NCBI GenBank assembly: GCA_014192425.1
Contig: BJHK01000002.1
Location: forward strand, 112,147 to 176,146
From: Planctomycetia bacterium
GTDB taxonomy: Bacteria > Planctomycetota > Planctomycetia > Pirellulales > UBA1268
Direction: 5' to 3'
Length of the DNA stretch: 64,000 bases
Shown: positions 1-3,620 of the stretch, one piece after another
How the letters are laid out: each line of letters opens with the position of its first letter
Numbering within the stretch: position 1 is the stretch's first letter
Program-made: the position numbers and the translations under genes
The notes under the pieces: model-generated
The model's input: the letters and a program-made list of their open reading frames with translations, nothing else
What the model was told of the DNA's origin: nothing
Databases searched by the model: none

Positions 1-2130
1 CCCTGCACCTGAAACTCCGTCGCCGCGTCCTCCAGATACAGCGATGAGCGGGTGTCGCGCGGCGGGCTCAAAAACCAGTGCACCGGGTCGATGTTCACCC
101 GGATGTCGATCGCGTGGGGCTTGAGCCTCTCTCGCCGAAGAGGAGGCCACGAGGCCGGCCCGCTCCGTGCCCCGCCGCTGCCGCCGGATCCACCGCCGCG
201 CCGCCCGCATGCTCCGCGTGAGCACGATTGGGTAGTGGTCGCGAAACTCCGCGAAGAGCTCGCGGCCGAGCTCCGCCTCACCGTCGAGAAGGGCCTTCAC
301 GAAGCGGGAGACGTGTTCCGCGCGGAAGGAACGCATCGAGGTGGAGAGGTGGAGGGCGGGGTGGGTGGTGAGGGTGCCGGGGGTGGCGCCGGCGCCGGAA
401 AAGGTGTCGGCGACCGTTTTCGGGGCTAAGCCGGAAAAGGTGCCAGCCACCATTTCCGGGGCGGAAATGGGTGCAGGCACCGTTTCCTCGTCAAACGTGG
501 GGGCAGGCAGCGTTTCCTCGTCGAACGTGGGGGCAGGCACCGTTTTCGCTCGCGATTTCGAAAGCCGGTCGAGGGCGCCCGAGGCCGCGTACTCGGAGTC
601 GGTGAGATGCGGCGAAATGAAGACGTCCCAGCCGGCAAAAAGCGTGCGGACGCCGTCGAGCCAGGCGCTGATGCCCGCCTCGCCCGTGTTGATCTCCTGG
701 CCGCCCCCCACGAGACACACCACCACCGCCCAGTCGGCATGCCGCTCCATCGCGCCGATGAGCAGCTCCGGCTCCGTCTGCGTGAACCCCGGCAGCCCCT
801 TCTTCCGCTTCATGAAGCTCGCCAGCTGCCGCGCGTCCCACGCCCGCTGGGCCTCGTCGAACACCACGACGTGGTCCACAGGGGCTGACCTGTCGCGGAG
901 CGTGGCGTCGCGGAAGTGATGGACGTTTTGAATGAAGGCCTTCACGGCGGAGCGGCAGAGGCCGATGCGGGGTGGGCCGGAGACGGAGGCGGAAAAGGTG
1001 CCAGCCACCATTTCCGGGGCGGAAATGGGTGCAGGCACCGTTTCCTCGTCGAACGTGGGTGCAGGCACCGTTTCCTCGTCGAACGTGGTGGCAGAGACCT
1101 TTTCCTTCTTGCGACGTTCCAGCTCGTCGCGGGCCAGGGCCTCCCGCAGCACCGCCACCAGCGGCCCATTGCCCGACAGAAAGACGGCATGGGCCGCGTC
1201 GTCGCGCGAGCCGTGACGCGTAGCCACGTTCAGGCCCACGAGCGTTTTGCCGGCCCCGGGCACGCCCGTCACAAACACGATCGCCTTCCGCCGCCGCTCG
1301 CGGGCTCCGGCAATGATCCGCTCCACCGCGGCGCTCGTGACCGCGAGGTTCACGGCCCCCGCGTCGCTGCGGGTGATGTCGTGCACCGTGTGGCGGGCGT
1401 AGAGCGACCGGGCCGCCTCGATGATCGTGGGCGTGGGGGAATAAGAGCCAGTGCCCCAGGTGGATGGGGTGAGGGCACCGGAAAAGGTGCCAGCCACCAT
1501 TTCCGGGGCGGAAATGGGTGCAGGCACCGTTTCCTCGTTCAACGCCAGGGCGATCGCGGGGCCGAGGCCGGCGGCATTGCAGCACAACGGCGGGCGGACG
1601 CCGTCGGCGTGGGGCGGCTTCCAGCGGCGGTCGCTCTTCGGGGCCTCGGTGGCACAGAGGATCGGGAAGATCGCCGCGGCGTGGCTCGGGGCGTGGAAGT
1701 TCTTGAGGTCGAGGCCATAGTCCCAGGCCTGCTCGTAGTCGAGCTGCTCGAACTTCTTCGCCCCCACCTTGAACTCGATCGGAATCACGGCCGTGGACGT
1801 GACGAGCACGGCATCCACCCGCCGGCCGAGCCGCGGGATGTCGAACTCGAGGTGGATCCAGGGGACAGGATGAAAAAGGTGACATCCAGCTTTTTCGCCG
1901 CGGAAAAGGTGGCTGTCACCTTTTTCATCGGCCAAGGCGGCGCGGAGCACGGGCAGCTGCAGCCGCCACGCGGAGAGCTGCTCGGGGGCGAGCGTGTAGC
2001 CATGCGGACTCGCGAGCGGGGCGTAGACCTCGTCGTCGGAGGCGCGGAGGAACGCGGCGACCGAGTCGGCATAGAAGGCGGCGTTGAGGCGCGGGCCGGG
2101 CTGGCCCGGGGCGGCGGTCGCGGAGGACAT
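1..2130 (-). CDS. DUF2075-type P-loop ATPase, 3' end off the left edge, frameshifted near base 130, carrying in-frame palindromic repeats
   Basis: Read on the minus strand from ATG at 2130, the frame stays open to about base 136. It shows a Walker A motif FVTGVPGAGKTLVGLN (about 1240-1285), a Walker B-like VVVFDEAQRAWD (about 850-880), and the family's C-terminal block with DPVHWFL and SSLYLEDAATEF (bases 1-125). That block is only read after a one-base shift at about 126-136, in a CT-rich run, so the gene is either frameshifted or carries a sequencing error. DUF2075 proteins resemble superfamily 1 helicases and often sit in accessory regions; the substrate is unknown. Four palindromic insertions add peptides such as EETVPAPISAPEMVAG without breaking the frame. 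The N-terminus lies inside the first 113-bp repeat. The family is fairly sure; function is not. Confidence 0.75.
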   Translation of the reverse strand, partial: MSSATAAPGQPGPRLNAAFYADSVAAFLRASDDEVYAPLASPHGYTLAPEQLSAWRLQLPVLRAALADEKGDSHLFRGEKAGCHLFHPVPWIHLEFDIPRLGRRVDAVLVTSTAVIPIEFKVGAKKFEQLDYEQAWDYGLDLKNFHAPSHAAAIFPILCATEAPKSDRRWKPPHADGVRPPLCCNAAGLGPAIALALNEETVPAPISAPEMVAGTFSGALTPSTWGTGSYSPTPTIIEAARSLYARHTVHDITRSDAGAVNLAVTSAAVERIIAGARERRRKAIVFVTGVPGAGKTLVGLNVATRHGSRDDAAHAVFLSGNGPLVAVLREALARDELERRKKEKVSATTFDEETVPAPTFDEETVPAPISAPEMVAGTFSASVSGPPRIGLCRSAVKAFIQNVHHFRDATLRDRSAPVDHVVVFDEAQRAWDARQLASFMKRKKGLPGFTQTEPELLIGAMERHADWAVVVCLVGGGQEINTGEAGISAWLDGVRTLFAGWDVFISPHLTDSEYAASGALDRLSKSRAKTVPAPTFDEETLPAPTFDEETVPAPISAPEMVAGTFSGLAPKTVADTFSGAGATPGTLTTHPALHLSTSMRSFRAEHVSRFVKALLDGEAELGRELFAEFRDHYPIVLTRSMRAARRWIRRQRRGTERAGLVASSSAREAQAPRDRHPGEHRPGALVFEPAARHPLIAVSGGRGDGVSGAG
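397..549. repeat. REP-like palindromic cluster 1 inside the DUF2075 gene
   Basis: Contains the core palindrome: a 25-base arm beginning ggaaaaggtgcc, a ggggc loop, and a second 25-base arm ending ggcaccgtttcc, with about 21 of 25 positions complementary. Extra half-units follow (tcgtcgaacgtgggggcagg) together with a diverged unit at 397-425. On the gene strand it is translated in frame as Thr/Pro/Glu-rich peptide (PAPTFDEETLPAPTFDEE). Confidence 0.85.
991..1110. repeat. REP-like palindromic cluster 2 inside the DUF2075 gene
   Basis: Has the same core palindrome as the 397-549 cluster, followed by two half-units (tcgtcgaacgtgggtgcagg). It sits between the Walker A and Walker B motifs of the host gene and is read in frame as TFDEETVPAPTFDEETVPAP. 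Its length keeps the frame, so the ATPase stays open. Confidence 0.85.
1480..1537. repeat. REP-like palindrome 3 inside the DUF2075 gene
   Basis: A single copy of the core palindrome (ggaaaaggtgccagccacc arm, ggggc loop, ggaaatgggtgcaggcacc arm). It lies between the N-terminal nuclease-like part and the ATPase domain and is translated in frame as EETVPAPISAPEMVAGTFSG. Confidence 0.85.
1870..1928. repeat. Second-type palindromic element inside the DUF2075 gene
   Basis: Perfect 15-base terminal inverted repeats, atgaaaaaggtgaca at 1870-1884 and tgtcacctttttcat at 1914-1928, enclose a centre with a ctttttcgccgcggaaaag stem. It is related in style to the ggaaaaggtg family but has a different sequence. 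It too is read through in the host frame (DEKGDSHLFRGEKAGCHLFH). Confidence 0.8.
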
Positions 2131-2929: not shown

Positions 2930-3415
2930 ATGGCACGAATCTGCGTCGAAACCACGATTCCGAGTTTCTACTTCGACATCCGCTCGGCGGCGGAAATGGT
3001 GGCACGGCGCAACTGGACCCGACGGTGGTTTGATGCCGCACGGCAATCCAGCGACGAGCTCGTAACCAGCCTGGCTGTGGAAGCGGAGTTACGGAACGGG
3101 GATTATCCGGCACGGCAGGAAGCCATGACGCTGATCGGCGGGCTCGCCCTCCTGGATCTTGACGAAGCGGTTGCCGAGATCGTCGATGCCTACATTGCCC
3201 ACCGACTGATGCCGAGAGATCCCGCCGGTGACGCGCTGCACCTTGCCGCTGCGTCGTATCACCGGTGTGATTTTCTGGTAACGTGGAACTGTGAGCATCT
3301 CGCAAATGCCAACAAATTCGGGCATATTCGCCGCATCAATACAATGCTTGGGATAGGTTGCCCGGTGCTCGTTACGCCCCTGGAACTCTTGGAAGAGGGA
3401 ACCGACGATGAGTAG
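2930..3415 (+). CDS. PIN-domain protein, VapC-like toxin
   Basis: A 161-residue PIN-domain protein. The N-terminal ICVETTIPSFYFD strand has Glu/Thr in place of the usual first Asp. Later acidic positions include VEAELRNGD and DPAGDALHLAAA, and the ending DFLVTWNCEHLAN is typical of this branch. PIN toxins are metal-dependent RNases. AAAGG lies about six bases before ATG 2930. The gene overlaps the next by eight bases, which is usual for toxin-antitoxin pairs, though here the toxin comes first. Confidence 0.8.
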   Translation: MARICVETTIPSFYFDIRSAAEMVARRNWTRRWFDAARQSSDELVTSLAVEAELRNGDYPARQEAMTLIGGLALLDLDEAVAEIVDAYIAHRLMPRDPAGDALHLAAASYHRCDFLVTWNCEHLANANKFGHIRRINTMLGIGCPVLVTPLELLEEGTDDE

Positions 3416-3620
3416 CCTCAGCGAGGTGCGAAAGGTTCGCAAGGCAATGTCAGCCGCCGCGGGGCACGATGTTCGCAAACTCATCGCCCAACTGAACGCG
3501 GGGCGGGAGGAGGTGCGTGCCAGAATCATCTCCCCCGGCGCATGTGCTGAATCCTGCGGCAGTTCGCAAGGCCCACAGAAGACCACATCGGCGGCTGACG
3601 CGGACAAACCGGCAGCGTGA
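3408..3620 (+). CDS. Small protein coupled to the PIN toxin, probable antitoxin
   Basis: A 70-residue protein whose ATG (3408) lies inside the last codons of the PIN gene. The N-terminal half (EVRKVRKAMSAAAGHDVRKL) is predicted helical and basic; the C-terminal half looks disordered. Antitoxin function is inferred from the overlap and size alone. Confidence 0.6.
   Translation: MSSLSEVRKVRKAMSAAAGHDVRKLIAQLNAGREEVRARIISPGACAESCGSSQGPQKTTSAADADKPAA

Follow-up and report, generated by a model that had tools for sequence, protein, structure and literature searches.

In-frame palindromic elements of several families recur in the linkers of a candidate phage-defence gene in a planctomycete family

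Four variable linkers of one candidate phage-defence gene in a planctomycete bacterium carry in-frame insertions of a palindromic element, here designated F1, which is dispersed across the genome and associated with a RAYT-type transposase gene. The insertions are derived, and orthologues in related genomes bear other families of elements at these positions, a finding overlooked in the original prediction for this locus and the most interesting of this analysis. The window, i.e., the whole stretch of 64,000 nucleotides that was analysed, corresponds to G000:C2:112147-176146 of a draft genome of 3.98 Mb, 95.9% complete and in 70 contigs. We consider it probable that RAYT-type REP/MITE insertions passed through a selective filter, in which frame-keeping linker insertions alone survive. 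According to this explanation, F1 would be a non-autonomous REP/MITE-like palindromic element related to the ends of a RAYT (HUH Y1) element of the same genome; F1 and other families would have spread through genomes, landing in many places, and F1 copies would have entered the candidate nuclease-helicase gene repeatedly. The survivors would be in-frame insertions in four variable linkers between conserved blocks, since stop codons are largely absent from the elements and the linkers would tolerate added peptide. In sister lineages, the same linkers would have been filled independently by other palindromic families, and in linkers C and D the element may later have grown by 30-bp (10-codon) tandem steps.

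The host gene encodes an N-terminal nuclease-like region followed by a DUF2075/SLFN-g3 helicase, and its reading frame is open over 948 amino acids, counting a 100-N gap (Table 1). The helicase domain was found in an intact orthologue (PF09848), and the PADLOC profile of the phage-defence candidate PDC-S41 aligned along the whole length of the intact orthologue L075 (residues 9-695 to profile positions 3-652 of 657, E=1.3e-258). PDC-S41 figures here simply as the host of the inserts, and its defence role is a candidate one, drawn from the profile match; no paper naming PDC-S41 turned up in our limited literature search. A putative PD-(D/E)xK-like motif was read by eye at the N-terminus, the host protein had no match in NCBIfam, and no sequence relative was found in the PDB. 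AlphaFold modelling gave mean pLDDT values of 40 for the G036 protein and 36 for that of G000, too low to show linker flexibility, and the coil seen in the linker predictions is given no weight here. The gene is patchily distributed, with matches in 17 of 72 genomes of the family and in 30 of a sample of 397 from the order; the relatives compared are MAGs, and the named orthologues are mostly MAGs filed as Planctomycetes.

Table 1. Positions within the window of the host gene, its linkers and their palindromic inserts
Feature	Positions	Strand	Basis or content
Host gene, candidate defence protein PDC-S41	1..2130	-	PF09848, PDC-S41 match of intact orthologue, orthologue alignment
One-base frameshift relative to orthologues	120..140	-	beside assembly gap; common to two degenerate downstream copies
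Linker D with inserts	355..570	-	one single palindrome (397-422), one double palindrome (433-487) and tandem 30-bp arms reaching about 545
F1 type-D double palindrome (55 bp), linker D	433..487		direct reading, repeat search, fold score
Linker C with inserts	967..1125	-	one double palindrome (991-1045) and tandem 30-bp arms reaching about 1106
F1 type-D double palindrome (55 bp), linker C	991..1045		direct reading, repeat search, fold score
Linker B with insert, joining nuclease-like and helicase parts	1459..1539	-	double palindrome 1480-1534
F1 type-D double palindrome (55 bp), linker B	1480..1534		direct reading, repeat search, fold score
Linker A with second F1 subtype	1864..1929	-	double palindrome 1869-1929

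All palindromes of the gene fall in one open frame, and the four segments between conserved blocks (66, 81, 159 and 216 nt) are all multiples of 3, in agreement with the original prediction that palindromes lie inside the DUF2075 gene and that every one keeps the reading frame. The 55-mers of linkers B, C and D are identical, and the palindrome of linker A is a related subtype. What had been described as two sequence types is really one family, with the same core and the same two-palindrome layout but different central bases; the F1 core, ggtgNCNGNcacc, set between A and T runs, is common to all four double palindromes of the gene. Chance does not account for them: a 25-mer of the element matched four times in the window and never in 100 shuffles, and a 22-mer consensus matched 13 times, again with none in shuffles. 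The DNA fold z-scores of the four main palindromes were -6.4, -6.4, -5.7 and -9.0, and the single palindrome of linker D, folded as 392-427, was weak (z -1.2). Tandem extensions of 30 bp cover positions 444-545 in linker D and 1026-1106 in linker C. The predicted enrichment of the added peptides in Pro, Glu and Thr holds at three sites (e.g., ETVPAPISAPEMVAGTFSG) and fails at linker A, where the peptide is EKGDSHLFRGEKAGCHLFH. The inserts read the element in no fewer than three different frames, and neither a target motif nor a target duplication was seen by eye beside them.

Just beyond the window edge, the host gene runs past position 1 and is broken by the 100-bp N gap; approximately 126 bp on the left of this gap duplicate sequence on its right. 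The frameshift lies at the gap, downstream of all inserts, and falls within the next conserved block, about 75 codons in. The allele in the window may thus be broken (a pseudogene), or the assembly may be chimeric at the gap, and the in-frame argument therefore leans also on the intact orthologues described below.

Several further features surround the gene. Partial C-terminal copies lie in tandem in L044 2549-5500 (G000:C2 about 109550-112500), and others in G024 C19 and G010 C306; the frameshift occurs at the same codon in the main G000 copy, two degenerate copies and one G024 copy. A distant second homologue (35% identity) is located about 6 kb off at G000:C2:103956-105800, beside an S24-peptidase array. 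A conserved leader motif, GACCAAGGTTGTCCCCCCGG, precedes the start codon of the host gene closely in many orthologues (e.g., L075 1015-1027, L079 2972-2984), and is found in the window at 2149-2168 and 2840-2859. The second of these copies sits among toxin-antitoxin-like genes and is contained in a 121-bp duplication (2093-2213 / 2784-2904, 84%). These small gene pairs, which adjoin the host gene at 2163-2783 and 2930-3620, gave weak DUF4258 and PIN matches, below cutoffs.

Across the genome, the F1 consensus search returned 120 sites against 14 in the reversed control, and a stricter search returned 74 against one; the repeats are thus dispersed and not confined to the host gene. These sites group into about 49 clusters with several layouts, including type A, in which two inverted ends make up 66 bp (GGTGCCAGCCACCAAATCTGGG); type B, of about 93 bp with two inner hairpins; and type D, the 55-bp double palindrome; shorter forms also occur. 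Gene calls near F1 sites were made with a custom codon model on the stretches around the elements. On this basis, 7 of the approximately 49 clusters are inside ORFs, and the others lie in spacers or overlap gene ends; a count of coding against spacer copies had been proposed in the original prediction. None of 33 type A copies was found within a gene, compared with 7 of 17 copies of other types (p=2e-4, or 4e-4 with each set of duplicated genes taken as one). Outside genes, one copy, at C1:202137, shares 98% identity with the 55-mer of the host gene. Genic or not, F1 copies are nearly all stop-free in 3 to 6 of the six frames. Since the inserts moreover differ in the frame used, three or more being represented, the suggestion that open phases were selected becomes needless; its counterpart, the tolerance of insertion in linkers, suffices.

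The copies within genes comprise the four host-gene sites, a tandem S24-peptidase gene and an SDR gene. In the S24-peptidase gene, F1 is present in two intact copies, and a third, frameshifted copy also has the element; the SDR gene has an in-frame insert in a loop, 14 residues longer than in MupS. The S24-peptidase tandem array spans G000:C2:92393-103767 (L043) and includes, besides the two intact copies, further degraded ones; three copies have a type-B palindrome, which in the two intact ones separates the S24 domain from the N-terminal part without shifting the frame.

The REP-associated tyrosine transposase gene that the original prediction suggested looking for exists and carries F1 ends. 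It is the sole Y1 transposase gene of the genome (C4:110161-110502), scoring over the cutoff for PF01797 and slightly under it for the NCBIfam REP-associated tyrosine transposase model NF047646 (73.7 bits against 80). The gene is placed between perfect 31-bp inverted F1 ends, GAAAAGGTGCCAGCCACCAAATCTGGGTAAT, and the element begins directly at the stop codon of glyA (named from sequence). Among the 72 family genomes, the Y1 gene is present in 26 and the exact F1 core in 41; the former occurs in 16 of the 22 genomes with at least 8 F1 cores and in 10 of the 50 others (p=3.5e-5, uncorrected for relatedness). Inverted F1 or F1-like ends were found at most of the 20 Y1/RAYT loci examined in the family; elsewhere the ends are F4 in G026 and G005, and F3-like in G024. 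Since the ends of the RAYT itself are of type A and the in-gene forms (types B, D and E) match them in the outer core only, the enzyme that mobilised the latter is identified here by inference. Recognition and cleavage of the palindromes by the RAYT is putative, and this RAYT or a relative may have moved the short in-gene forms. As for F2, a family found in orthologues, no transposase could be linked to it.

Comparison with homologues indicates the derived state of the inserts. Linkers A, B, C and D measure 3-5, 12-18, 9-15 and 14 residues in 12 homologues belonging to other families within the order, against 22, 27, 54 and 72 residues in G000; the inserts are therefore derived. Within the family, linkers C and D are without inserts in G059, whose conserved DNA is 94.8% identical. 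The reading of the repeats as ancestral internal repeats of the protein, whose peptides do resemble low-complexity linker sequence, was rejected on account of these outgroups and of the extragenic copies of the same DNA genome-wide, and is scarcely credible; G059 likewise lacks the repeats at C and D. The original prediction had named orthologues without the repeats as a decisive comparison, and their short linkers show that the elements are not ancestral parts of the protein.

The same linkers hold different elements in different relatives. F2 (AAAAGGGGACGCAGCTCTTTTC, with 23-25-bp perfect arms) occupies linkers A and B of G036, F4 (AAATGGGGACGGGAGCGA) linker B of G070, and F3 (AAAAAAGGTGTCAGGAGTCGTTTC with two inner hairpins) linker D of G053; a further palindrome, CCCTCTCCCTCTGGGAGAGGG, lies at linker B of G010. 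F1 itself is found at linker D in G036 and G007, at B, C and D in G005 (C decayed), and at C in G070. F2 recurs as a dispersed repeat through the G036 genome (23 matches) and F4 through that of G070 (8 matches), with no control matches; F3 in G053 is confined to the host gene, plus an imperfect copy beside its transposase gene. The F3 copy (L100 4500-4625) has the layout of type-B F1, with end repeats around two GC-rich hairpins in a cloverleaf-like arrangement, and end sequences that differ. The same G053 gene has a further in-frame insert between two other conserved blocks (L100 3433-3546, 114 nt compared with 9 in others), which belongs to no recognised palindromic family.

In the linker C of G070, excision of the 54-nt insert restores the 39-nt empty-site length, and a target duplication is not evident. 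Insertion without target duplication is expected of Y1 elements. Altogether, about 10 insertion events, defined as site-by-family combinations, are all in frame in intact copies, and the chance of ten in a row is 1.7e-5; events were not tallied per genome, since common flanks (e.g., those of G000, G070 and G005 at linker C) suggest shared descent or exchange.

These orthologues also bear on whether the inserts simply pile up in a decaying gene on which constraint was lost. The frameshift near the gap and the degenerate partial copies beside the gene in G000, together with truncated copies in G024 and G010, are compatible with decay; however, the G036, G005 and G007 orthologues are intact and full length (740-750 residues), with conserved domains and in-frame inserts whose segments are all multiples of 3. 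Decay is thus an unlikely explanation, and the protein would still be made and active in at least some strains.

A stronger competitor to the selective filter is target bias, in which the transposases favour the host gene, or single-stranded or repeat-rich DNA there. The 2-kb host gene contains 4 F1 clusters where 0.025 are expected, and 26 kb of the region contain 9 where 0.32 are expected; the former excess is larger than uniformly random insertion would give, and may reflect local spread, target bias or benefit. Local spread is also suggested by the near-identity of the copies that three of the linkers contain. Nevertheless, the same linkers were used by at least four sequence-distinct families, a common target motif was not seen by eye beside the inserts, the conserved blocks of intact copies are insert-free, copies elsewhere lie mostly in spacers, and the regional cluster is partly due to gene duplication (three S24 copies). 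Target bias is therefore possible but rather unlikely, and we infer that selection, not target choice, keeps the inserts in linkers.

A beneficial role of the peptides is harder to sustain. They might be favoured for altering the length or composition of the linkers, e.g., through a change in activity or the avoidance of phage counter-defence, as could be suggested by the host being a defence candidate, by linkers that vary even among close relatives, and by recurrence through several families. Between families, however, the peptides have no common sequence and are read in different frames of the element, and neutral tolerance already accounts for both frame and location; we regard an adaptive use as improbable. 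We give similarly little credence to the related proposal that the linkers are evolving docking sites, at which RAYT-type families would repeatedly supply peptide and variation would be favoured because it alters how the protein works or escapes counter-defence.

In-frame elements of this kind have precedents. REPs in Planctomycetes and intragenic REPs in the PVC superphylum (Opitutus terrae, Verrucomicrobia) were reported previously, and those of the GTAG/CGTC superfamilies were described within genes of Opitutus terrae, Thauera, Xanthomonas, Rickettsia conorii and others; they are RAYT-linked and mostly extragenic, and the in-gene ones encode 20-30 residues (PMC3733652). In that study, the uvrA gene of O. 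terrae had received several REP inserts, the recB genes of two Xanthomonas species contained different REPs at about the same site, tolerance of linkers and loops was already proposed for intragenic REPs, and there was mention of RAYT elements whose terminal inverted repeats are long, as well as of the MITEs they gave rise to (PMC3733652). F1 resembles the GTAG/CGTC REPs in being a RAYT-linked palindrome that is mostly extragenic with some copies in genes. In contrast to them, neither a GTAG nor a CGTC tetranucleotide was seen by eye at the stem end in F1 elements or RAYT ends, the RAYT of F1 has long inverted ends, and at least four families of elements, in different genera of a single planctomycete family, have reused four linkers of one candidate defence gene.

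As in the long-end RAYT elements and their MITEs, a single Y1 gene lies between inverted palindromic ends and short end-to-end derivatives exist (type A, 66 bp), but the in-gene types B, D and E of F1 match the RAYT ends in the outer core alone. The comparison with the palindromic elements of Rickettsia, which are in-frame and apparently tolerated insertions in protein genes (reviewed in PMC2229807 and PMC10969869), proved apt as an analogy: in-frame insertion of a palindrome in protein genes is common to both, a shared behaviour that is no proof of membership. The Rickettsia elements measure 105-146 bp, have 12-bp end repeats and, in an intracellular lineage, are found in a wide range of unrelated genes, whereas F1 is about 25-100 bp long, RAYT-linked and mostly extragenic.

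The original prediction of novelty stands in part. In-frame intragenic REPs are known outside Rickettsia (PMC3733652); in turn, the F1 family, its planctomycete host and the multi-family reuse of four linkers in a defence candidate were not found in the literature searched. New here are F1, a planctomycete family whose RAYT has long ends, and the recurrent use of the linkers of one gene by multiple families. The kind of event is known, and the reuse of the same joints by several families makes it an unusually clear example. Taken together, these loci amount to a natural replicate experiment, with at least four distinct palindromic families in the same linkers of orthologues and empty-site relatives to compare them with; as a result, whether intragenic REPs are tolerated or useful becomes directly testable, and in a candidate defence gene. 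Our results extend RAYT-linked long-end elements, and their protein-coding insertions, to a planctomycete family.
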